Shown here: piece after piece, positions 43,441 through 56,754 of the stretch
How the letters are laid out: each line of letters begins with the position of its first letter
Position numbering within the stretch: position 1 is the first letter of the stretch
DNA from: Gammaproteobacteria bacterium
GTDB lineage: Bacteria > Pseudomonadota > Gammaproteobacteria > HK1
Direction: 5' to 3'
DNA length: 64,000 nt
NCBI GenBank assembly: GCA_022824305.1
Contig: JAJEAD010000002.1
Span: forward strand, 1 to 64,000
Notes under the pieces: model-generated
Database searches by the model: none
Told to the model about the DNA's origin: nothing
The model's input: the letters and a program-made list of their open reading frames with translations, nothing else
Position numbers and translations under genes: made by a program

Positions 43441-43766
43441 GACGTTCTCCCGGGGCTTTTCGCGATTACGTCAGAAAGCCCCATGGCGGTCAAACCACGG
43501 CCACGAACCGCCATGCTCCGCCGGCCCCGATCCCTTTCGTGACCGGGCCGTCCGGAGCGCCTTCGCGGCTTTCGGCCGCCGCGTTGCGCGCTCCCGTGAA
43601 TCCGGGTTAGCCTGCCGGGCCGCCCGGGACCGGCACAGAAAGCGACTCCGTGCTCACGGACCCGGCCGACAGGAAGTCGCTCCTGCGGTCAGCGCACAGG
43701 GACGGTGCGGGCACTTTCGCGGTTCGGGCACACCCGACCGAACCCATCACACGAGGGAGAAACACG
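43441..43766. promoter_or_regulatory. Intergenic region upstream of the sugar-importer array
   Basis: This 326-base gap between the divergent ilvE and RbsB-like genes must contain the promoter of the long plus-strand array. A GAGGGAG ribosome site precedes 43767. I saw no clear operator or riboswitch. An in-frame extension of the binding-protein gene back to 43650 has no support. Confidence 0.35.
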
Positions 43767-44945
43767 ATGAGATTGTGGACGAAGTGTTCCATCGTTCTGG
43801 CGGCTCTCCTGTGGCTGCCGCTCGCCGGCCAGGCGGAGGGAGTGGACGAGCTGCCGGCGGACATCGCGGAGAAGCTCTACGCCGAGGACATGCTCGATCC
43901 GATGCAGCCGATCGGACCGAGCGCCTACCGTGACTGGAAGGCGCCGAACCCGCCGCCGTGGACGATCGGCTACGCCAGCTCCTACGCGGGGAACACCTGG
44001 CGCGCGGGCGTCATGGACCGCCTGATCCAGGAGCTCATTCCCAAGTGGAAGAAGCTCGGCCTGCTCAAGGAGGTCATCGTCACGCAGTCGAACCTCAAGG
44101 ACGCGCTGCAGATCCAGCAGATGCGCCAGCTCGTGGACCGCGGGGTGGATGCGCTCATCGTGTGCTGCTCCAACCCCACCGCGCTGAACCAGACCGTCCA
44201 GTACGCCTACGAGAAAGGCATTCCCACCTTCTCCTTCGTCGGCTACCTGACCTCGCCCTACTCCATCAACTCTTCCGCCAACTACCAGCTCGCCGGGCAC
44301 CGCATGGGCACCTGGATGGCGGATGAGCTCGGCGGCTCCGGCAAGGTGCTGGTGGTCGAGGGCATTCCCGGCACTTCCGGCTCGGACTCCCAGGACCGAG
44401 GCATCAAGGCGGGCCTCGGAGAGTACTCCGACATCGAGATCGTCGGCTCCATCGCGGGCATGTGGACGGACCAGGTCGCGCAGGCCGAGGTCCAGAAGTG
44501 GCTCGCCACCCACCCCGGCCAGCTCGACGGCATCGTGGTGCAGTCCGCGGCCGAGATGGGCGTGCTCAACGCGCTCAAGCAATCGGGCCGCGACATGATC
44601 CCCGTCACCATCGGGGGCGAGCTCGGCGCCATCTGCTACTGGCGCAAGAACATCGACTACATCAGCGGCGCCTACCACGTGTGGCCGCCCGGTGACGACT
44701 TCGAGCTCATCTGGGACATCATGATGCGCACGCTCCAGGGCCAGGGCCCGAGGCTGCAATCGGTGATGGTCGACATCATCCCCTTCGGCAAGGACGACGT
44801 GATGGCGATGATGGGAGAGGACTGCGATGAGAACAACAAGCTCTGGGCCCACGTCGGACCCCAGGTCTGGGGCAGCAAGGAGTTCCTCGATCACTTCTTC
44901 CTGCGGCCCGCGGACCCGGAGGCCTACAAGGCGTCCGACCACTGA
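43767..44945 (+). CDS. RbsB-like periplasmic sugar-binding protein
   Basis: The ~392-residue protein has a signal peptide (M-R-L-W-T-K-C, hydrophobic core, A-G-Q-A-E) and the type I periplasmic-binding fold used by RbsB/XylF-like proteins. Segments such as T-I-G-Y-A-S-S-Y-A-G-N-T-W-R, I-V-C-C-S-N-P-T-A-L and V-V-E-G-I-P-G-T-S-G-S-D match the ribose-binding cluster. The ligand may be a sugar, sugar alcohol or similar compound. It is the first gene of a plus-strand array that continues with an RbsA-like ATPase, two permeases and a rhodopsin gene. Confidence 0.88.
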   Translation: MRLWTKCSIVLAALLWLPLAGQAEGVDELPADIAEKLYAEDMLDPMQPIGPSAYRDWKAPNPPPWTIGYASSYAGNTWRAGVMDRLIQELIPKWKKLGLLKEVIVTQSNLKDALQIQQMRQLVDRGVDALIVCCSNPTALNQTVQYAYEKGIPTFSFVGYLTSPYSINSSANYQLAGHRMGTWMADELGGSGKVLVVEGIPGTSGSDSQDRGIKAGLGEYSDIEIVGSIAGMWTDQVAQAEVQKWLATHPGQLDGIVVQSAAEMGVLNALKQSGRDMIPVTIGGELGAICYWRKNIDYISGAYHVWPPGDDFELIWDIMMRTLQGQGPRLQSVMVDIIPFGKDDVMAMMGEDCDENNKLWAHVGPQVWGSKEFLDHFFLRPADPEAYKASDH

Positions 44946-45011: not shown

Positions 45012-46913
45012 ATGAGTCCCGAGGGCGCCGCGACCGGCCTGTCCCGGCAATCGGGCGCCGCCGCGCATCCATCGGCGGCGCCCTCCACCGCGCGCGATGT
45101 CGTCTCCGTGCTCGGGGTACGGAAGACCTACGGGGTGACGCGGGCGCTGGACGGCTGCTCCTTCAGCGCCCGGCGCGGTGAGATCCACGCCATCGTCGGC
45201 GGGAACGGCTGCGGAAAGTCGACTCTCGCCAAGGTCATGTCGGGAGTGGTGCTGCCCGATGCCGGGCAGTTCTCCATCCTCGCCCACACGCCGCGCACTC
45301 CACTGGAGGCGCGCCGCGCCGGGATCGCGACCGTGTACCAGGAGGTCCTCGTCGCGGACGCCTGCTCGGTGGCCGACAACCTCTTCGTGGGTTCGGACCA
45401 CCTCTTCACCAAGACGCGGCCGAGCGCGGAGAAGCTCCAGACCGCCCGCACGCTGATGAAGGAGCTGACCGGTCTCGCGATCGACCCGGAGATGGACGCC
45501 GGCGGACTGCCGCTCTCCATCAAGCAGTGGATCACCATCGGCCGGGCGCTGCTCATGAAGCCGGAGGTGCTCATCCTGGACGAGTCCTCGGCCGCCCTCG
45601 ATCTCGATTCCACCGAGCGGCTCTTTGCCCGGATGCGCGAGCTGCGCGACCAGGGCGCGACGGTGATCATCGTCACCCACCGCATCGCGGAGCTCATCCG
45701 CATCAGCGACCGCGCCACCGTGATGCGCGACGGGCGCGACGTGGGGGTGCTGGAGAAGCAGGAGATCACCGAGCAGAACCTGCTCGGCCTGATGACCGGC
45801 GACCGGGACCTGGCCCATGACGAAGCCGGCCCGGCGCTGCGCTCGGCGGGCGAAGACCTCGTGATGCAGGCCGACGGCCTTCGCATCTGGCCCGAAGCGG
45901 ACCGGATTCACCTGGAGCTGCGACGGGGCGAGATCGTCGGCGTCGCCGGACTGGACGGGCAGGGGCAGGACGAGCTGGTAAGGGCGCTGGCCGGGGTCCA
46001 GCCCGCGCTCGAGGGCCTGCCCCGGGTGCGCACGGACTCCGGGGACTCGGTCGAGATCACGGGGCTCGAGGCGGCCGAGCGCTGCCGCATCGCCTACGTG
46101 TCGGGGGATCGCCGCCGGGAAGGAATCTTCCCCAACCTGAGCATCTTCGAGAACCTGCTGATCCCGCTCTACCGCAAGCACATCGAGAACGGCCGGCTCG
46201 GAATCATCATGTGGGCCGACGTGTCCGCGATCTTCGACTGGTTCGTGGAGCGTCTCTCGATCAAGGTGGGCGAGAAGACCAACAAGATCACGTCCCTCTC
46301 CGGCGGCAACCAGCAGAAAGTGCTCCTGGGGCGCGCATTCGCGCAGCAGCCGCACATCCTGATCCTGAACGACCCCGCGCGCGGCATCGACGTGGAGACG
46401 AAGCGCGAGCTCTACGACCACCTGCGTGACTTCGCCGCCCAGGGGCACTCGGTGGTGTTCCTGTCGAGCGAGCTCGAGGAGTTCATCGGGCTCTGCAACC
46501 GCGTCGTGGTCGTCCGGCACGGAAGCATCTTCGAGAGCTTCAGCGCCGATGCGATCGACCCCGATCGGATCCTCGAGGCCATGTTCGGGCAGAGAGACGG
46601 CGCGACGGCCGGCGGCGGAAGCGAACGCCCGCACCACGGTCGGGATGCGGGGAGCGCCGAGCCAGGGGAAGACGGGCACGAGCGCCGAGGCCCCGTGCAG
46701 GGCGGCCCCGGCGACGCGGCAGTCATCGACTTCGAGAACGAGAGACGCCGCGCCCGGGAGCGCGCGCGGCGCGTCCGGCGCATCCGCATCGTGGACAGCG
46801 ACGCGGAACGCGCGCGACGCGAGGATGACGCAACTGACGGCGACGACTCGGGCGCCGGGGGCGCCGAGCGCGCGAAAGCGGGCCGGATCCGAATCGTCTA
46901 TTCCGACGAGTGA
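45012..46913 (+). CDS. RbsA-like sugar ABC ATPase with acidic-repeat C-terminal tail
   Basis: The 633-residue protein has the two-domain architecture of RbsA. The first domain has Walker A G-G-N-G-C-G-K-S-T and Walker B V-L-I-L-D-E-S. The second has a degenerate P-loop (L-D-G-Q-G-Q-D-E), as is usual, and an intact signature L-S-G-G-N-Q-Q-K. Normal family length is about 500 residues. The extra ~100 C-terminal residues are acidic and low-complexity, ending in V-I-D-F-E-N-E, R-I-R-I-V-D-S-D-A-E and R-I-R-I-V-Y-S-D-E. These echo the I-K-I-V-E-F-D repeats of the next gene. The tail may dock the ATPase to that protein, which is inference. Confidence 0.87.
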   Translation: MSPEGAATGLSRQSGAAAHPSAAPSTARDVVSVLGVRKTYGVTRALDGCSFSARRGEIHAIVGGNGCGKSTLAKVMSGVVLPDAGQFSILAHTPRTPLEARRAGIATVYQEVLVADACSVADNLFVGSDHLFTKTRPSAEKLQTARTLMKELTGLAIDPEMDAGGLPLSIKQWITIGRALLMKPEVLILDESSAALDLDSTERLFARMRELRDQGATVIIVTHRIAELIRISDRATVMRDGRDVGVLEKQEITEQNLLGLMTGDRDLAHDEAGPALRSAGEDLVMQADGLRIWPEADRIHLELRRGEIVGVAGLDGQGQDELVRALAGVQPALEGLPRVRTDSGDSVEITGLEAAERCRIAYVSGDRRREGIFPNLSIFENLLIPLYRKHIENGRLGIIMWADVSAIFDWFVERLSIKVGEKTNKITSLSGGNQQKVLLGRAFAQQPHILILNDPARGIDVETKRELYDHLRDFAAQGHSVVFLSSELEEFIGLCNRVVVVRHGSIFESFSADAIDPDRILEAMFGQRDGATAGGGSERPHHGRDAGSAEPGEDGHERRGPVQGGPGDAAVIDFENERRRARERARRVRRIRIVDSDAERARREDDATDGDDSGAGGAERAKAGRIRIVYSDE

Positions 46914-46947: not shown

Positions 46948-47307
46948 ATGAACCGCGGGAAGATGAAGATCATCGAGTTCGGGAAGAACGAGGAGCGTGC
47001 GGGCGGGGCCGCGAGCGACTCGCGCGGGGCCGGACGCATGAAGATCGTCGAGTTCGACGACGATGCGCCCACGGGCACGAAGCGCGGCCCGGCCCGGCCC
47101 CCGGTCGGTCCCATCCGGATCGTCGAGTTCGACGACGAGCGGCCCCGGCCGAAGGGGGAGCGCGCGTCGCCTCCGCCCTGGGGACCTTCGGCCTCGCGGG
47201 CGCGGATCGGCGCCATCAAGATCAAGGAGTTCGACGACGATGGCAACGAGCGCCCGCGCGGCGGCGGCGCGGCGGCGGGGCGGATCAAGATCGTCGAGTT
47301 CGACTGA
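46948..47307 (+). CDS. Small repeat protein with five I-[KR]-I-V-E-F-D-D units
   Basis: The 119-residue protein has no family I recognise. It is built from five copies of a short hydrophobic/acidic unit: M-K-I-I-E-F at 6-11, M-K-I-V-E-F-D-D-D at 31-39, I-R-I-V-E-F-D-D-E at 56-64, I-K-I-K-E-F-D-D-D at 90-98 and I-K-I-V-E-F-D at 113-119. Linkers of about 15-25 residues are rich in Gly, Pro and Arg. The units look like single beta-strands with an acidic turn. The ATG at 46948 has GGAGGAG upstream and the gene sits snugly between the ATPase and permease genes, so expression is real. The ATPase tail carries related motifs. It could be an assembly scaffold or a peptide precursor. Confidence 0.8.
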   Translation: MNRGKMKIIEFGKNEERAGGAASDSRGAGRMKIVEFDDDAPTGTKRGPARPPVGPIRIVEFDDERPRPKGERASPPPWGPSASRARIGAIKIKEFDDDGNERPRGGGAAAGRIKIVEFD

Positions 47308-47337: not shown

Positions 47338-49761
47338 GTGGCGCAGGCGGCAGCAGCGGCGGCACACGCGGTGGGGGGCGCCGACTTCAGCCAGGCGCCG
47401 TCGACCGCGCGCACCAATCTGCTCGTGCCCATCCTGCTGCTCTTCGTGCTGCTCATCATCGCGGTGCTCCGCGCGCCGAACCTCATCTCCAGCGTCGGCA
47501 TCGGCAGCGCGATCATCGTGTCCGCGCCCCTCATCCTCGCCACCTACTCCCTCACCCTCATCGCGATGGCGGGACGCGCGGGCGTCGATCTCTCCATCGG
47601 GCCGCTCATCGGCTTCATCAACGTGAGCCTCATCCAGCTCTACGCCGCGGACGTGATCTCCTCGCCGTTCGCGTTCTTCGCCTACGCGATCGTGGTGGGC
47701 ATCCTCTACCAGGTCCTCATGGGACTCATCATCATCTACGTCCGGGTGCAGCCCATCATCGTCGCGCTCAGCGGCTTCCTCGCCCTGGTCGGCCTCAACC
47801 TCGTCATCCTGCCCCGGCCGGGCGGAGTCGCCCCGGAGTGGATGATGCCCTGGGGTCTCGGCACCTCGATCTGGTCCCCGGTCCTCGCCATCCTGGTGCT
47901 GGCGACCGGCGCCTGGTTCCTGCTGACGCGCACCGCGTTCTTCGACCACCTGCGCCTGATGGGCTCCGACGAACGCACCACCTACACCGCCGGAGTGCGC
48001 ATCAACATCGTCCGCCTCGGCGCGCACGTGATCGCGGGCGTCTACAGCGCGCTCGCGGCGCTCACCTTCACCTCCCTCATCAGCTCCGGCGATCCGACCC
48101 AGGGCACGACCTACACCCTGATGGCGGTCACCGCCCTGGTGCTCGGCGGCACGAGCCTCGCGGGCGGGCGCGGCAGCATCATCGGCTCCCTGCTCGGGGC
48201 CCTCAACATCTACCTCATCACCTACGTGCTCTCGACCTTCAACTTCGGCATGGTGCAGAGCTTCGTCACCGATGCCGCCTACGGGGTGGTGCTGGTGGTA
48301 TCCCTCCTCCTCACCCTCGCCCTGCCCCGCCTTCCCGGGGCGGTGCAGCGCCTCTCGCCCTTCGCCTTCTTCGTGGTGCTCGGCGTCGTCGCCTTCAGCG
48401 TGCTGCTGCACGCGAAGGACGAGATCGTCGCGCCGGCGGCGACGATGGAAGACAGCGGATTCACGGTGCTCGGCGCCGACGATTCCGGGCTCACCGTGCT
48501 GGGAGGCGACGATTCGGGCCTGACCGTCCTGGGCGGGGACGATTCCGGGCTTACGGTGCTCGGGGGCGATGACTCCGGCCTCACGGTCCTGGGGGGTGAC
48601 GACTCCGGCCTGACCGTCCTCGGAGGCGACGATTCGGGCCTCACGATTCTGGGCGGCGAGGAGCCCGCCGCCGCGGCGCCGTCCGCCATGGGCACGCCAC
48701 TCGTCTATGCCGCGCTCACCGTGGCCATCGTGGTCTTCCTCGTCTACCTGCTCTACCGCCACCCCTCGGTATCGCTGGTGGCCTTCGTCGGCGTCCTCCT
48801 GCTTCTCGTCCTCGGCCTGAGCCTCTACGAGGGACGCGCTCCGGGCGCCGGCACGCCGGCCGAAGGATCCGGAACACCGTTTGTCTTCTACCTCGAAGCC
48901 CCCGCGCCCGAGACGCAGGCGACGCGAGACGCTTCCGGAGGCGCGGGAGGCTCCCACCCGGCGCTGCCCGCGGTCCGCGGCCTGCTGCTGCTCACCGGAA
49001 CCGTGATGCTCGCCTCGCTGCTCATCGTCATCGCGCTGCCCAGGGTGCGCACACGCCTCGGCAACACCTACCTCCTCTTCATGCTCGCGCTCGGAGCGGC
49101 CGTGCTCGGCGTCCTCCTCTACGCGAGCGGCGGGGCGGAGCTCCTGCCCGGCGGCCTCTACGTCGAAGCCTGGGGCGCCATCCTCCTCGGCGCGGTCCTC
49201 CTGATCGCGAGCATGCCGCGGGTGCAGTCCCGGGTGAAGGACATCACCTTCGTGCTGCTCGCCATCCTCTGCGGGGCGCTGCTCCTTGCCACCTGGTTCT
49301 CCGCCGGGCCGGAGAGCGGCAGCGCCGCGGCGCCCGCCGGCCCGCCGCCGGGAGCCGCTTCCGCACCCTGGCCGCCTCCGGTCGGGACGGCGGCGCTCTC
49401 CGGGAGCTTCTACGGTGCGGTGTTCTGGGTCCTGCTCGCGGCGGGCGCGGTATTCCTGGTGACCCTGCCGCGCGTCGGCTTGGCGGTTCGCGCCTACATC
49501 GCGCAGAACACCGGGGTGAAAGCCTTCTCCTGGACCGGCGGCTTCATCGTGGTCGCCGCGGTGCTCGCGCTCGGGGCGGTGTTCCTCGCCGCCGATCTGC
49601 CCCTGTGGAAGCTCGGAGTCGCGATCGTGGCGGCGAGCGTGGTCGGGCGCTACGCGTGGCGCTTCCTGCACCGCTACCGGGGCGGGGAGATCCTGCCCGC
49701 CGCCCACCGCGGTCCCCGGCCGCGGCGCCGCGACCCCACCCTCGCGGGAGCGAAAAGATGA
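47338..49761 (+). CDS. RbsC-like permease with long repeat-bearing membrane extension
   Basis: The 807-residue protein begins as a normal RbsC permease of ~350 residues (G-R-A-G-V-D-L-S-I-G-P and G-G-T-S-L-A-G-G-R-G-S are family motifs). The ~450-residue extension is unusual. It holds seven D-S-G-L-T-V-L-G-G units at residues 372-440, then about eight more membrane helices. The hairpins recur around an L-P-R-[VL] motif (A-L-P-R-L, A-L-P-R-V, S-M-P-R-V, T-L-P-R-V), suggesting internal duplication. The start is GTG 47338 with GAGGAGG upstream. With the ATPase and second permease it should form a sugar importer. The extension may be a sensory or assembly platform. Confidence 0.85.
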   Translation: MAQAAAAAAHAVGGADFSQAPSTARTNLLVPILLLFVLLIIAVLRAPNLISSVGIGSAIIVSAPLILATYSLTLIAMAGRAGVDLSIGPLIGFINVSLIQLYAADVISSPFAFFAYAIVVGILYQVLMGLIIIYVRVQPIIVALSGFLALVGLNLVILPRPGGVAPEWMMPWGLGTSIWSPVLAILVLATGAWFLLTRTAFFDHLRLMGSDERTTYTAGVRINIVRLGAHVIAGVYSALAALTFTSLISSGDPTQGTTYTLMAVTALVLGGTSLAGGRGSIIGSLLGALNIYLITYVLSTFNFGMVQSFVTDAAYGVVLVVSLLLTLALPRLPGAVQRLSPFAFFVVLGVVAFSVLLHAKDEIVAPAATMEDSGFTVLGADDSGLTVLGGDDSGLTVLGGDDSGLTVLGGDDSGLTVLGGDDSGLTVLGGDDSGLTILGGEEPAAAAPSAMGTPLVYAALTVAIVVFLVYLLYRHPSVSLVAFVGVLLLLVLGLSLYEGRAPGAGTPAEGSGTPFVFYLEAPAPETQATRDASGGAGGSHPALPAVRGLLLLTGTVMLASLLIVIALPRVRTRLGNTYLLFMLALGAAVLGVLLYASGGAELLPGGLYVEAWGAILLGAVLLIASMPRVQSRVKDITFVLLAILCGALLLATWFSAGPESGSAAAPAGPPPGAASAPWPPPVGTAALSGSFYGAVFWVLLAAGAVFLVTLPRVGLAVRAYIAQNTGVKAFSWTGGFIVVAAVLALGAVFLAADLPLWKLGVAIVAASVVGRYAWRFLHRYRGGEILPAAHRGPRPRRRDPTLAGAKR
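48451..48657 (+). repeat. Seven in-frame tandem repeats encoding D-D-S-G-L-T-V-L-G-G
   Basis: One 27-base and six 30-base units encode D-S-G-F-T-V-L-G-A then five D-D-S-G-L-T-V-L-G-G and one D-D-S-G-L-T-I-L-G-G. Synonymous codons differ between units, so the array is not a recent slippage product; the protein sequence is kept while DNA drifted. It lies in the permease extension between membrane helices. Confidence 0.95.
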
Positions 49762-50011: not shown

Positions 50012-51445
50012 ATGAGTCGCGCCGCCCACCGTTTCTACAAGTGGCTGGGCTTCGCGGTCGCGGTGCTCGTCTCCGGCACCGGCGGCATCCTCGGGCTCGT
50101 CGAGGACGTGCCCCTCCAGCACGTCATCTTCTACACCGCCGCCACCTTCGCGCTCGTGCTCTGGGGCTGGCACCACTTCTCGGTGCGCTGGATCTACGAG
50201 CCCGACGCCATCGCGCTCGGCAACATCCGCGAAGGGCCGGGACAGGAAACGGAGCGGCCCGCCGGCGCGCCGGCCGCGGAAGAGCCGGAAGCGGGGACGA
50301 GCTACGTCCGCCGCCTGCTCGTACGCTACCGGCGCATCCTCGTGGGCAGCGTCATCCTCCTGCTCGCCTACCTCGGGGTCGGGGCGACGGTCGACGGCTT
50401 CTTCACCGTCGCCAACGTCGTCGCCTCCCTGATCCTCGCCGCCCTCCTCGCGCTCGCAGTCACCTTCAACCGCCACATCGCCGAGAACAAGAGCGCATTC
50501 ATCGGGATGACCGCCCTGATCGGACTCTTCATCGTCGGCTCCATCGTGGTCGACGGCTTCTTCTCCGCCATCAACATGAAGTCCATGCTGGTCTTCGCCG
50601 CCTTCCTCGGCCTCGCCTGCCTGGGCCAGACCCTGGTGGTGCTCCTCGGTGGCCTGGACCTCTCGATTCCCTTCATCATCGGCTCGGCCAACATCGGGCT
50701 CATGTACCTCTTCGGCTTCGAGGGCCTGCCGAACTGGATCGCGGTGATCTTCATCCTGATCCTGGGAACCCTCATCGGGCTGGTCACCGGCTTCCTGAGC
50801 TTCCGCCTCCAGGGCCAGGCCCTGATCGTCTCGCTCGGGGTCGGCTTCGCGGTGGCCGGCGGCACCCAGATCGTCACGTCGATCGGCACCCGCTACGCCG
50901 GCAACGTGCACGGCGCGGTGCCGGGCTGGCTCACCAACATCGCGGCCATGAACGGCACCACCTTCGGGCTGAGCTTCCCGCCCATCATCCTGATCTGGGT
51001 CGCGATCGCGGTGCTGCTCGTGGTCGCCATGCGCAACACCGTGTACGGCCGCGCCCTCTACGCGCTGGGCGGCAGCCGCACCGCCGCCCGCCGCCTGCGC
51101 ATCTCCGAGCGCCGCTACTGGATCGGGGTCTATGCGATCAGCGGCTTCTTCGCCGCCCTCACCGGAGAGATGCTGCTCGGCTGGAGCGGCAGCGGCTTCA
51201 TCGGCGTCGGCGACCCCTACCTCTTCACCACCCTCGCCGCGGTGGTCATCGGCGGCACCTCCCTTCTCGGCGGCTGGGGCGGATACGGATACACTGTGAT
51301 CGGCGTGCTCGTGCTGCAGGTGCTGACCTCCTTCCTCGTCGGGCTCGGCCTGGACTACGAAGGCCAGCAGTTCATCTTCGGTCTGCTGATCATCCCGCTG
51401 GTGGCGCTGTACGCGCGCTCCCCCCACATCCGCTCGCAGATCTGA
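50012..51445 (+). CDS. RbsC-like permease, second subunit
   Basis: The 477-residue permease has an N-terminal extension with two helices and a charged linker (residues 1-100). The family body follows, with V-L-L-G-G-L-D-L-S-I-P-F and the C-terminal G-G-T-S-L-L-G-G-W-G-G-Y. It ends R-S-P-H-I-R-S-Q-I. The ATG at 50012 has AAGGAGG upstream. The pair of different permeases suggests a heteromeric importer. The 250 bases between the first permease and this gene contain no supported gene. The rhodopsin gene follows after about 100 bases. Confidence 0.87.
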   Translation: MSRAAHRFYKWLGFAVAVLVSGTGGILGLVEDVPLQHVIFYTAATFALVLWGWHHFSVRWIYEPDAIALGNIREGPGQETERPAGAPAAEEPEAGTSYVRRLLVRYRRILVGSVILLLAYLGVGATVDGFFTVANVVASLILAALLALAVTFNRHIAENKSAFIGMTALIGLFIVGSIVVDGFFSAINMKSMLVFAAFLGLACLGQTLVVLLGGLDLSIPFIIGSANIGLMYLFGFEGLPNWIAVIFILILGTLIGLVTGFLSFRLQGQALIVSLGVGFAVAGGTQIVTSIGTRYAGNVHGAVPGWLTNIAAMNGTTFGLSFPPIILIWVAIAVLLVVAMRNTVYGRALYALGGSRTAARRLRISERRYWIGVYAISGFFAALTGEMLLGWSGSGFIGVGDPYLFTTLAAVVIGGTSLLGGWGGYGYTVIGVLVLQVLTSFLVGLGLDYEGQQFIFGLLIIPLVALYARSPHIRSQI

Positions 51446-51543: not shown

Positions 51544-52236
51544 ATGAACGAGATGCTCAATCCGAACGACATCGTGAGCGCGACCTTCTGGCTGATGTCG
51601 CTGGCGATGGCGGGCGCCACCGCGTTCTTCTTCTTCGAGCAGCGGCGGGTGGCGGACCGCTTCAAGCTCTGTCTCGCGGTGATGGGCGCGGTGACGCTGA
51701 TATCCGGCATCCACTACTTCCACCTGCGCGAGGTCTGGGCGGCTACCGGGTCGGTATCGACGGTCTTCCGCTTCGTGGACTGGCAGCTCACCGCGCCGAT
51801 GCAGTGCGTGCTCTTCAGCCTCCTGCTCGGCAGCATCGCCGCCGTGCCCCAGGCCCTCTTCTGGCGCCTGCTGACCGCCTCCGCGGTGATGGTCGCGGCC
51901 GCCTACCTGGGAGCGGCGGGCTACATGAGCCCCACCCTCGGCTTCCTCGTCTCGGTCGCGGGCGGCCTCTACGTCCTCGGCGAAATCTACCTCGGCGAGG
52001 CGAGCAAGATAAACGCCCGGAGCGAGAACGCGGCGGTGCAGTCCGCGTTCAATGCGTTGCGCCTGATCGCGACCATCGGCTGGGCGGTCTATCCGCTCGG
52101 CTACTTCATGGAGTACCTCGGCGGCGGCGTGGACCCCGCCAGCCTGAACGTGATCTACAATCTCGCCGACTTCCTGAACAAGATCACCTTCGGCCTGATC
52201 ATCCATCGGGCAGCGGTGAGAGATTCGGCGCGATGA
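51544..52236 (+). CDS. Proteorhodopsin-like retinal protein without donor carboxylate
   Basis: The ~230-residue seven-helix protein is clearly of the proteorhodopsin type. The Schiff-base lysine is K213 in N-L-A-D-F-L-N-K-I, with second counterion D209. Primary counterion D79 and T83 lie in F-V-D-W-Q-L-T-A-P-M-Q, and H60 matches the conserved His that pairs with the counterion. Q87 at the spectral-tuning position predicts blue absorption. The proton-donor position (D79+11) is L90, where pumps have Glu or Asp, so fast proton pumping is unlikely and a sensory or regulatory role is more plausible. ATG 51553 has better ribosome-site spacing than 51544. It is embedded in the importer array. Confidence 0.9.
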   Translation: MNEMLNPNDIVSATFWLMSLAMAGATAFFFFEQRRVADRFKLCLAVMGAVTLISGIHYFHLREVWAATGSVSTVFRFVDWQLTAPMQCVLFSLLLGSIAAVPQALFWRLLTASAVMVAAAYLGAAGYMSPTLGFLVSVAGGLYVLGEIYLGEASKINARSENAAVQSAFNALRLIATIGWAVYPLGYFMEYLGGGVDPASLNVIYNLADFLNKITFGLIIHRAAVRDSAR

Positions 52237-52288
52237 GCGCGCGTTGCGAGCGCAGCCGTCGGCCGAAGCGGGAGGAGGAGAACGCGCC

Positions 52289-54337
52289 GTGACCGGAGTG
52301 GACATCATTACTGCAATCCTGCTCGCAGGCATATTCATTGCAGTCATCGTCTATCTGCTCTACTGGCTCTACCAGCGATCGTCGAAGGAAGTCGCCTTCG
52401 TGCGCACCGGCTTCGGCGGCGAGAAGGTCATCCTGAACGGGGGCGCCCTGGTCCTCCCGATCATCCACAACATCACCCTCGTCGGAATGAAGACGCTGCG
52501 CCTGGAGGTACGGCGCGGCGGGGGCGCGGCGCTCATCACCAAGGACCGCATGCGGGTGGAGGTGGTCGCCGACTTCTTCCTCCGGGTGCGCCCGGACCGG
52601 GACTCCGTGGCCGCGGCCGCGCAGTCGCTCGGCGGACGGACCATGGACGCCGAGGCGCTCAAGGAGCTGGTCCAGGGCCGCTTCGTGGACGCGCTCAGCA
52701 GCATCGCCGCTCACATGACCATGGACGAGATGCAGGAGGAGCGCGGTCGCTACGTCGACGAGGTCAAACGCCTCGTCGAGAACGTGCTCAGCAGCAACGG
52801 CCTGGAGATGGAGGCGGTCTCGCTGACCGGCCTGGACCAGGCCGACATCGGGGTCTTCAATCCCTCCAACGCCTTCGACGCGGAAGGACTGACGCGCCTG
52901 ACCGAGCAGATCGAGTCGCGCAAGAAGCGCCGCAACGACATCGAGCAGGACACGCTCATCCAGATCCGCAACAAGAACCTCGAGACGGAGAAGCTCTCCC
53001 TCCAGATCGACCAGGAGAGTCACTACGCCCGCCTCGAGCAGGAGCAGCAGGTATCGGTGCGCCGGGCGGAACAGCGCGCCGAGATCACCAAGGACCGGGC
53101 GGCGCGGGACCAGGAGGCCCGGCAGGCCGAGCTGCAGGCGGAAGAGGAGATAGAGAAGGCCCGGATCTTCAAGGAGAAGGCGGTCGAGGCGGAGGAGGCG
53201 CTGCGCGAGGCGCGCCTCACCGAAGAGATCGAGGAGCGGCGCAAGCACCGCAACGAGGTCGAGAAGGAAGTCGCGATCCAGATCTGGGAGAAGGACCTCG
53301 AGGCGGAGAAGCGCTACCTCGACATCCAGAAGGAGACCGAGTTCCTGCGCAGCGAGCAGAAGCGCGAGATCGCGGTGCACCAGGCCGCGCAGCAGTCGGA
53401 GACCGCACGGGAGCGGGCCGAGCGCGAGCGCGAGGCCGAAGAGGCGGAGATCCGCGCCCGCGAGGAAGTCGAGAAGACCCGCATCGCCCAGGACAAGGCG
53501 CTCGAGCTCGAGCGCATCCGGCGGGCGGAGGAGACCGAGCGGCTCGACATCCAGCGCCGCCGCCTGCTCGCCATCGAGGAGAAGGAGCGCGCGATCGCCA
53601 TCGCGGCGAAGGCCCGCGAGGAGCTGGAAACGCTCGCCACGGTGGAAGAGGCGCGCGCCCGCGAGGCGGAGGCGGCGGAGAAGGTCGCCTCGGTCCGGGA
53701 AACCGAGGTCGCGGAGCGCAAGAAGCGGATCGAGATGATCCTCGCCGGGCTCCAGGCCGAGCGCGAGTCCCTGATCATGACCACCGTCGCGGAGGCGGAG
53801 AAGGCGGTGGCGGAGGAACGCGCGGAGGCGGACCGCTTCCAGAGCCTCGCGGCAAGGCTGCGCTACGAGGTCGACGCCGAGGGCAAGCGGGCGCTCAACG
53901 AGGCGGAGAACCTGCGCAACGACGCGAGCCGCCGCAGCGCGCTGCGCATGAAGCTCGTCGAGCACCTCGAAGGGATCATCCGCGAGGCGGTCAAGCCGAT
54001 GGAGCAGATCGACGGGATCAAGATCCTGCAGGTCGAAGGACTGCCGGGCCTGAGCGGCCCTCTCCCCGCGGCCGGCGGGAGCGGCGGGGACGATTCCGGC
54101 GGAGGCTCCGGCGACGACGGGGCGCCGCGGGACGGCACGCCGGGGGCGCGGGGCAGCCTCGCCGACCAGATCGTGAGCTCGGCGTTGCGCTACCGGGCGC
54201 AGGCGCCCTTCGTGGACAACCTGCTCCGCGAGATCGGCATGTCGCCGAACGAGATCACCCGCCTCGGCGGCCTGCTCCGGGACGAGTCCGGCGGCGGCGA
54301 CGCCGCCGGGAAGCCCGCGAGCGACGAGCGGCCGTGA
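52289..54337 (+). CDS. Flotillin-like SPFH protein
   Basis: The 682-residue protein has an N-terminal membrane helix (I-I-T-A-I-L-L-A-G-I-F-I-A-V-I-V), an SPFH/band-7 domain (V-R-T-G-F-G-G-E-K-V near residue 40) and a very long E/K/R/A-rich coiled coil from ~200 to 570, as in flotillin/FloT. A Gly/Asp-rich stretch is followed by a C-terminal helical region. Flotillins scaffold membrane microdomains. The start is GTG 52289 with GGAGGAGGAG upstream. Its place right after the rhodopsin gene suggests a shared membrane platform, which is inference. Confidence 0.85.
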   Translation: MTGVDIITAILLAGIFIAVIVYLLYWLYQRSSKEVAFVRTGFGGEKVILNGGALVLPIIHNITLVGMKTLRLEVRRGGGAALITKDRMRVEVVADFFLRVRPDRDSVAAAAQSLGGRTMDAEALKELVQGRFVDALSSIAAHMTMDEMQEERGRYVDEVKRLVENVLSSNGLEMEAVSLTGLDQADIGVFNPSNAFDAEGLTRLTEQIESRKKRRNDIEQDTLIQIRNKNLETEKLSLQIDQESHYARLEQEQQVSVRRAEQRAEITKDRAARDQEARQAELQAEEEIEKARIFKEKAVEAEEALREARLTEEIEERRKHRNEVEKEVAIQIWEKDLEAEKRYLDIQKETEFLRSEQKREIAVHQAAQQSETARERAEREREAEEAEIRAREEVEKTRIAQDKALELERIRRAEETERLDIQRRRLLAIEEKERAIAIAAKAREELETLATVEEARAREAEAAEKVASVRETEVAERKKRIEMILAGLQAERESLIMTTVAEAEKAVAEERAEADRFQSLAARLRYEVDAEGKRALNEAENLRNDASRRSALRMKLVEHLEGIIREAVKPMEQIDGIKILQVEGLPGLSGPLPAAGGSGGDDSGGGSGDDGAPRDGTPGARGSLADQIVSSALRYRAQAPFVDNLLREIGMSPNEITRLGGLLRDESGGGDAAGKPASDERP

Positions 54338-54871: not shown

Positions 54872-55723
54872 ATGGCCCGCCATTCCCCCGTAACCGGCCG
54901 CTACGTCACGATCGAGGTGGACGGCAAGGAGTACAAGGTCTTCTACCTGCACAACGGCAGCGGGCAGCCGCTCATCTGCCAGCACACCGCGGGCGCCCAC
55001 AACCACCAGTGGCGCGGCCTGCTCGAGGACGAGGAGTTCACCAGCCAGTACAACATCATCGCCTACGACCTTCCCCGGCACGGCAAGTCCGACCCGCCGC
55101 ACAACACCGAGTGGTGGAAGGAGGAGTACCGGCTCACCGCCGAGCACTACGTCAACTTCATCGTCACGCTCTGCGACGCGCTCGAGCTCAAGGACCCCAT
55201 CTTCATGGGCTCCTCCTTCGGCGGCAACGTGGCGCTCCAGCTCGCGCTGCGCCGGCCCGACCGCTTCAAGGCGGTGATCCCGGTCGAGGCCGCGGACTAC
55301 GCGCCCGGCTTCTTCCTGGACTGGTGGCGCCACCCGCACGCCAACGCCGCCCAGGTCTGCGCGAGCGGGGTGTGGGACCTGATGGCGCCGCAGTCCCCGG
55401 ACATGGACCGCTGGCTCACCTGGCACTACTACTCGCAGGGCTCGGAGGCGTTCCGGGGCGACCTCTACTTCTACTCCGTCGACCATGATCTCCGCGACGA
55501 GCTGCAGAACATCGACGGGCGCCGCTGCCCGGTGGTGATGATGACCGGGACCTACGACTACCTCACCCCGCCCGAGGCAACCGAGAACACCGCACGGCAG
55601 ATCCGCGGGGGCGTCTACATCGAGATGGAGGACATCGGGCACTTCCCGATGAGCGAGAACCACGAGGTCTTCCGGGTCTACCTCCGGGAGGCGCTGCGCA
55701 TCATCAGGGAACGAACGGGCTGA
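54872..55723 (+). CDS. Alpha/beta hydrolase
   Basis: The 283-residue protein has an alpha/beta-hydrolase fold. The oxyanion region is H-T-A-G-A-H, the nucleophile elbow G-S-S-F-G-G, the acid residue in G-T-Y-D-Y-L-T-P-P and the catalytic His in I-G-H-F-P-M-S-E. The triad Ser-Asp-His is complete. It probably hydrolyses an ester or C-C bond of a small molecule. The ATG at 54872 has GGGAG upstream. It is the last gene of the plus-strand array, about 50 bases after the SCP2-like gene. Confidence 0.85.
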   Translation: MARHSPVTGRYVTIEVDGKEYKVFYLHNGSGQPLICQHTAGAHNHQWRGLLEDEEFTSQYNIIAYDLPRHGKSDPPHNTEWWKEEYRLTAEHYVNFIVTLCDALELKDPIFMGSSFGGNVALQLALRRPDRFKAVIPVEAADYAPGFFLDWWRHPHANAAQVCASGVWDLMAPQSPDMDRWLTWHYYSQGSEAFRGDLYFYSVDHDLRDELQNIDGRRCPVVMMTGTYDYLTPPEATENTARQIRGGVYIEMEDIGHFPMSENHEVFRVYLREALRIIRERTG

Positions 55724-55850: not shown

Positions 55851-55926
55851 GTGGATTCCCGCTACCGCGGGATGACGGCCCACGGATAACGTGTTCCGAT
55901 CGTCATCCCGGACGGGAAGCGTCAAC
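55851..55926. repeat. Inverted pair of REP-like elements
   Basis: The motif gtggattcccgctaccgcgggatgacgg at 55851-55878 recurs inverted as cgtcatcccggacgggaagcg around 55900-55920. It resembles the pair at 40757-40842 and sits between the hydrolase and lactonase-like genes. Confidence 0.6.
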
Positions 55927-55944
55927 CAGGCATGGTGGGAGGCG

Positions 55945-56754
55945 ATGTCCCGCGGCGCGCGCGGAACCGCGCGGCGGGCTTCCGGCAAGACCACGGGACT
56001 GCGCCTCTACGCCATGACCTGCGGGTGGCTGAGTTCCGATCTCGGCATGATGCTCGCGGGACGCGAAGGCACGATCCGCTTCCCCATTCCCGCCTACCTC
56101 ATCGAGCACCCCAAGGGCCGGGTGCTCTTCGACACCGGACTGCACCCGCAGTCCATGCACGACGCCCACGGCCGCATCGGGCAGCTCGCGGACTTCTTCC
56201 AGGTGCACTTCCGCCCCGGCGAGGACATCCGGTCGCGCCTGGAGCAGCTCGACATCGATGCGGAGCGGATCGACTACGTCATCAACTCCCATCTCCACTT
56301 CGACCACGCGGGCGGCAACGAGCTGGTGCCCAATGCCCGCATCATCATCCAGCGCCGGGAGTGGGAAGCGGGCCGCCTTCCCGAGGCCATCCAGTCGAAC
56401 GGCTACAACCCCGACGACTACGGGCACGGCCACCTCGTGCGACAGGTCGAAGGCGAGTTCGACCTCTTCGGCGACGGCAGCGTGGTGAGCTTCCCCACCT
56501 TCGGCCACACCCCCGGCCACCAGTCCCTGAAGCTGAAGCTCTCCCGGGGCGAGGTCGTGCTCGCCGCCGACGCCTGCTACTTCCGCGAGAGCCTCGAGAA
56601 GCTCCACCTCCCGGGTCTGGTCGCCGACCGCGTGCAGATGGTCAACTCCCTCCTGCTGCTGCGGAAGCTCCAGCGCAACGGCGCCCGCATCTTCTACGGC
56701 CACGATCCCGAATTCTGGCGGCAGGTCCCGCAGGCGCCCCTGGCGGTGGTGTGA
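55945..56754 (+). CDS. Metallo-beta-lactamase-fold hydrolase, AHL-lactonase-like
   Basis: The ~269-residue protein has the di-zinc motif N-S-H-L-H-F-D-H-A-G-G, a later His in F-G-H-T-P-G-H and Asp in L-A-A-D-A-C-Y, as in AiiA-type lactonases. The early segment L-R-L-Y-A-M-T-C-G-W-L is typical of that group. It may open homoserine lactones or other lactones; the function is not proven by sequence. ATG 55945 is preferred, with GGGAGG just upstream; ATG 56014 lies inside the expected domain. Confidence 0.8.
   Translation: MSRGARGTARRASGKTTGLRLYAMTCGWLSSDLGMMLAGREGTIRFPIPAYLIEHPKGRVLFDTGLHPQSMHDAHGRIGQLADFFQVHFRPGEDIRSRLEQLDIDAERIDYVINSHLHFDHAGGNELVPNARIIIQRREWEAGRLPEAIQSNGYNPDDYGHGHLVRQVEGEFDLFGDGSVVSFPTFGHTPGHQSLKLKLSRGEVVLAADACYFRESLEKLHLPGLVADRVQMVNSLLLLRKLQRNGARIFYGHDPEFWRQVPQAPLAVV

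Follow-up and report, generated by a model that had tools for sequence, protein, structure and literature searches.

A 64,000-nucleotide stretch of a gammaproteobacterial contig (the window) encodes, upstream of a flotillin-associated rhodopsin (FArhodopsin) and a flotillin, an ABC permease in which an RbsC-like core is followed by an extension of about 480 residues and ten further helices. Three helical hairpins of this protein, the first of which incorporates the last helix of the core, are homologous repeats by sequence comparison, and a further hairpin probably belongs to the same series. We tentatively favor, with slightly less than even confidence, the reading that this half of an importer carries its hairpin-duplicated extension as a docking and spacing module in a rhodopsin-flotillin assembly.

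The permease and its gene cluster

The genes of the cluster follow one another in the order given here.

43650-44945, + strand: periplasmic substrate-binding protein (Pfam Peripla_BP_4, E 5e-37)
45012-46913, + strand: RbsA-like tandem ABC ATPase, with a C-terminal tail bearing a RIRIVDSD tag and a terminal RIRIVYSDE tag
46948-47307, + strand: small protein of 119 residues, with five tag copies and without a family match
47338-49761, + strand: permease of 807 residues, RbsC/CUT2-type core plus C-terminal extension
50012-51445, + strand: second ABC permease (PF02653 at residues 189-461) with an N-terminal extension of ~190 residues
51544-52236, + strand: flotillin-associated rhodopsin with D-T-L triad and retinal lysine (PF01036; PDB 9r23, E 4.5e-79)
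52244-54337, + strand: flotillin (Pfam Flot, E 3e-31; Band_7)
54872-55723, + strand: alpha/beta hydrolase
55891-56754, + strand: metallo-beta-lactamase-fold enzyme (PF00753, E 2e-24)

The permease core matches PF02653 over residues 57-319 (E 8e-14; 51.8 bits against a curated cut-off of 26.8), and the usual operon partners of a CUT2/RbsC permease, a Peripla_BP_4 binding protein and a tandem-domain RbsA-like ATPase, are encoded alongside it. With about 20 helices in 807 residues, compared with the ~320 residues and 10 helices typical of the family, the protein is an extended variant. For its substrate subfamily, the best NCBIfam equivalog scored 82.7 bits, below the cut-off of 398. Its parts, with added helices numbered from TM11, are as follows.

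47338-48318, + strand: RbsC/BPD_transp_2 permease core, helices 1-10 (PF02653)
48262-48408, + strand: hairpin unit 1, native TM10, turn ALPRL (48319-48333), TM11 (hhalign 96% to units 3 and 4)
48454-48657, + strand: tandem array of linear motifs in the first loop on the periplasmic side, after TM11, SGFTVLGA plus six DDSGLTVLGG/DDSGLTILGG
48694-48825, + strand: hairpin unit 2, TM12, turn YRHPSV without LPR, TM13 (from hydropathy)
48970-49137, + strand: hairpin unit 3, TM14, turn ALPRV (49033-49047), TM15 (hhalign 96% to units 1 and 4)
49156-49308, + strand: hairpin unit 4, TM16, turn SMPRV (49210-49224), TM17 (hhalign 96% to units 1 and 3)
49402-49602, + strand: hairpin unit 5, TM18, turn TLPRV (49462-49476), TM19 (hhalign 63-86% to unit 4)
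49543-49695, + strand: last helix pair, TM19-TM20, with loop DLPLWK and basic C-terminus, resembling a RodA hairpin

The order permease, second permease, rhodopsin and flotillin is kept in L033, L034, L035, L036, L075-L079 and L081-L083, where the binding protein and ATPase lie upstream of the permease, divergently in L075/L076. This arrangement recurs across alpha-, beta- and gamma-proteobacteria, with permeases of long, short and extension-free form. Several neighbors have features of their own. The N-terminal extension of the second permease (50012-50575; ~190 residues) has several predicted helices and is conserved in the cluster. The alpha/beta hydrolase (54872-55723) is 83-96% identical in long-form clusters, reaching 96% even between distant genomes, far above its neighbors, which suggests tight constraint or transfer. 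Between the ATPase and permease genes of one locus (L035:3200-7942) lie hydantoinase/oxoprolinase A and B genes and a gene for a 203-residue protein carrying repeated YT.SD...F.KL motifs.

Homology among the added hairpins

The original prediction suggested that internal duplication had more than doubled the protein. To assess this, units of 58-62 residues were cut around the turns and compared pairwise with shuffles in which helix, turn and helix each kept their composition. Within the window permease, the pairs 1-3, 1-4 and 3-4 exceeded these shuffles with Z of 5.7, 6.3 and 7.8, so that the self-alignment proposed as a check came out in favor of a repeat. When alignments of nine orthologs were compared with hhalign, pair 1-3 reached 96.5%, pair 1-4 95.9% and pair 3-4 96.5%, at E values between 6e-9 and 8e-10; units 4 and 5 gave 62.5%, rising to 86% with five orthologs. 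The best values for unit 2 were 29% with unit 1 (nine orthologs) and 40% with unit 3 (five orthologs). The controls, 150 comparisons with membrane tiles cut from the rhodopsin and the second permease, averaged 10.8 (SD 3.0); pairs 1-3, 1-4 and 3-4 scored 43-46, and the only control matches above 19 (27.3 and 22) involved unit 2, the higher being with one tile of the second permease (75%). Because of that score, unit 2 may have a different origin. These comparisons identify hairpins 1, 3 and 4 as homologous and hairpin 5 as a probable member of the series; hairpin 2 shows no clear relation to them.

That the hairpins are unrelated helices, alike through shared composition and carrying L-P-R by chance, is very improbable. 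The lack of a clear relation between unit 2 and the others and the poor conservation of the L-P-R-[VL] motif in orthologs would fit such an origin; for units 1, 3 and 4 it is contradicted both by the shuffles and by scores more than 10 SD above the control mean. Since TM10 of the core is itself part of unit 1, the repeat began from the C-terminal hairpin of the core. We retain duplication, in which this last hairpin (TM10, a short basic turn often with proline, and TM11) was copied repeatedly to give the ten-helix add-on.

The L-P-R-[VL] motif and the topology of the extension

The four pentapeptides first noticed are present at residues 328 (ALPRL), 566 (ALPRV), 625 (SMPRV) and 709 (TLPRV), whereas shuffles of the permease that preserve its composition contain a mean of 0.02 and a maximum of 2 such motifs; because the pattern was picked after the sequence had been viewed, the repeat was also tested by the other means above. 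All four had been placed after the RbsC core; this holds for three, the first closing native TM10 and thus belonging partly to the core. To the four motif-bearing hairpins must be added a motif-free one (unit 2, residues ~453-496). As a defining feature or family signature the motif had to be abandoned, since [AST][LM]PR[VL] is absent or occurs once in orthologs that share the added helices, against four copies in the window permease. The turn proline itself is retained in the nine-ortholog alignments in 9/9 sequences for unit 1, 6/9 for unit 3, 8/9 for unit 4 and 5/9 for unit 5.

What appears to persist is topology. Counted from TM10, the helices predicted by hydropathy number eleven in the window permease, L033, L075, L076, L077 and L078; in L034, L035 and L041 the number varies from ten to twelve. 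Lysine and arginine fall mostly in the short odd-numbered loops of the extension and at the C-terminus, and the long even-numbered loops are mostly acidic or Gly/Pro-rich (nine proteins), as had been proposed for the segments separating the hairpins. Both termini of RbsC are cytoplasmic; if this applies here, the LPR turns are predicted to be cytoplasmic and the long loops periplasmic, in agreement with the positive-inside rule. The extension is predicted to conserve turns that are short, basic and cytoplasmic, and periplasmic loops that are long and either acidic or rich in Gly/Pro. An AlphaFold model built from six orthologs had a pLDDT of 37 and was discarded.

The extension is 20-46% identical to its orthologs compared with 59-82% for the core, which argues that it is not a transport core, and its added helices have few invariant polar residues. 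These properties bear on the alternative in which the added hairpins serve as a regulatory domain or as a second domain for transport, either forming their own channel or sensing the substrate or rhodopsin state to gate the importer. Ten helices of conserved topology beside a rhodopsin would suit such a domain. The rapid divergence of the extension, its scarcity of invariant polar residues and the absence of transporter or sensor relatives from Pfam, NCBIfam and PDB searches speak against this alternative, and we regard it as unlikely.

Searches for relatives of the extension

Scanning the extension against Pfam and NCBIfam returned nothing convincing, a PDB search with its profile gave no match, no relatives were detected in viral contigs, and no stand-alone homologues of a single hairpin unit, for which the original prediction had proposed a search, turned up. 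A pentapeptide-repeat match (4.5e-4) came from one of the four members, not the window's, and was rejected, its likely source being the GTSLSG linker of L034. The description of the extension as an undescribed membrane module agrees with these scans and with the main text of the 2023 FArhodopsin paper (PMC10308929), where neither the extension nor the shared tag described below is mentioned; beyond that paper, our literature search found nothing relevant on the extension or the cluster.

Outside these permeases, only one match to the extension is notable: its last helix pair resembles a stretch of RodA, covering 44 residues (hhalign 96.8%, E 3e-10). In a set of 2,759 ORFs, RodA proteins ranked directly behind the permeases, in part because the set had been supplemented with RodA loci. 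Compared with the RodA hairpins of L050-L053, the pair (49543-49695) is 51% identical over 41 residues in L050. The RodA hairpin lies in the membrane in the orientation opposite to that predicted for the last helix pair; this likeness to RodA (SEDS) would therefore involve a reversed orientation, with the rest of RodA absent, and convergence is possible. On visual inspection the pair also seemed a plausible homologue of the second permease's N-terminal hairpin, an idea dismissed at an hhalign value of 0.6%.

Distribution of long and short forms

Genome searches revealed long-form permeases in L033 (a Kiloniellaceae MAG), L034, L035 (a Chromatiales MAG), L041/L082, L075, L076 and L077-L079, and shorter forms in L036-L038, L081 and L083, with about three added helices in L036, L081 and L083; the L080 permease has no extension. 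These genomes are a sample, so that the counts are not prevalences; the frame of the L079 permease is interrupted by undetermined bases, and that of L037 stops at a contig edge. In a phylogeny built from the core, a single change separates long from short forms, with modest support (74/66), so that growth may have run in either direction.

Non-adaptive growth, with duplicated hairpins kept as inert lipid-facing helices and a slippage-prone linker contributing little, would be in keeping with the poorly conserved extension sequence and with its varying size: the extension is absent in L080, has about three helices in L036 and L081, and has ten in the long forms. Yet the ten-helix form occurs in alpha- and gamma-proteobacteria, including 1.4-Mb genomes (L075, L076) in which dead weight should vanish, and the units of the periplasmic array differ almost solely by synonymous changes. 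We consider this explanation improbable.

Periplasmic array and shared tags

The array after TM11 had escaped the original prediction. Codon differences between its units comprise 84 synonymous and 5 nonsynonymous changes, which indicates purifying selection on the peptide and copies that are not fresh. The core motif recurs between differing spacers in other permeases: L033 has DSSGLTVLGAEP units, L077 and L078 have SGIQSLG with longer Ser/Gly spacers, and L083 has SSGITVLG with long spacers; L034 has GTSLSG instead. Elsewhere in the window's genome, a search for the array gave only a weak match (41%, E 0.1).

A second short motif marks the small protein and the ATPase tail. The small protein (46948-47307) contains five motifs of the type [KR][IM][KR][IVK][IVK]EF and the ATPase C-terminal tail (46779-46913) two, and such KIVEF-type tags occur in both proteins of most long-form clusters. 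Orthologs of the small protein were found in L033, L034 and L077-L079. The form [KR]I[KR]IV[ED]F[DG] was observed in L033, L034, L035, L076-L079, L082 and L083. In L083, two tag copies precede a metallo-beta-lactamase-fold enzyme in the same reading frame, at the enzyme's N-terminus. Judged from these occurrences, the tag may recruit proteins to a shared partner.

A proposed docking and spacing module

In the reading that we favor, the permease would be one half of a heterodimeric CUT2-type (RbsC-like) importer in a FArhodopsin cluster, and the add-on would lie outside the transport path, providing lateral docking and spacing that keep the importer beside the downstream FArhodopsin and flotillin. 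We infer docking because the extension diverges faster than the core, its gene neighborhood is constant and it matches no transport or sensor family. The periplasmic SG[LI][TQ][VS]LG array could be an extra multivalent tether, perhaps for the binding protein, and the tags on the ATPase tail and small protein could effect the same tethering on the cytoplasmic side. Two observations count against docking: the short forms in L036, L081 and L083 also adjoin a rhodopsin and flotillin, so that the full module is unneeded for association, and the permeases of L035, L041, L075 and L076 lack the motif array. A broader proposal, that the cluster encodes one rhodopsin-flotillin-ABC importer complex joined by the helix module, the periplasmic array and a short cytoplasmic tag that the ATPase tail has in common with a multivalent linker protein and with one genome's metabolic enzyme, is conceivable and in our view rather doubtful.

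Comparison with known systems

Ordinary RbsC/CUT2 permeases (PF02653) share the core fold and the partners of the window permease, namely binding protein, tandem ATPase and second permease, but stop after TM10, where the window permease adds ten helices and a motif array.

The best two PDB matches of the window rhodopsin are both named flotillin-associated rhodopsin, and on these matches we assign it to the FArhodopsin clade. The flotillin ORF begins at 52244 on the same strand, immediately downstream of the rhodopsin end at 52236, and key-position triads read from helix-C segments are D-T-L in the window and D-N-I in L075/L076. Haro-Moreno et al. described the FArhodopsin cluster in 2023 (PMC10308929), with flotillin adjoining the rhodopsin, an "inner membrane translocator", uncharacterised alpha/beta hydrolases and D-T-L and D-N-I triads. 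These features recur here, the D-T-L triad in the window and the D-N-I triad in L075/L076. The ABC operon, permease extension and shared tags, all three present in the window, do not appear in its main text. The same paper reports a classical proteorhodopsin alongside FArhodopsin in every such genome, whereas our search of the window's 5-Mb genome (95% complete) found one rhodopsin only and no second, classical proteorhodopsin. Among thirteen rhodopsin-bearing genomes searched, the window's and twelve others with the cluster, two rhodopsins occur only in G280, G741 and G818; the other ten have one, with the caveat that several of the thirteen are incomplete MAGs.

FArhodopsins are widespread and flotillin-adjacent proteins without known function, for which the published idea is help to a proteorhodopsin in the same cell. 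With mostly a single rhodopsin per genome and an unusual ABC importer encoded alongside, the importer would be a natural partner of FArhodopsin, and the extension, motif array and tags offer concrete parts with which to probe that partnership.
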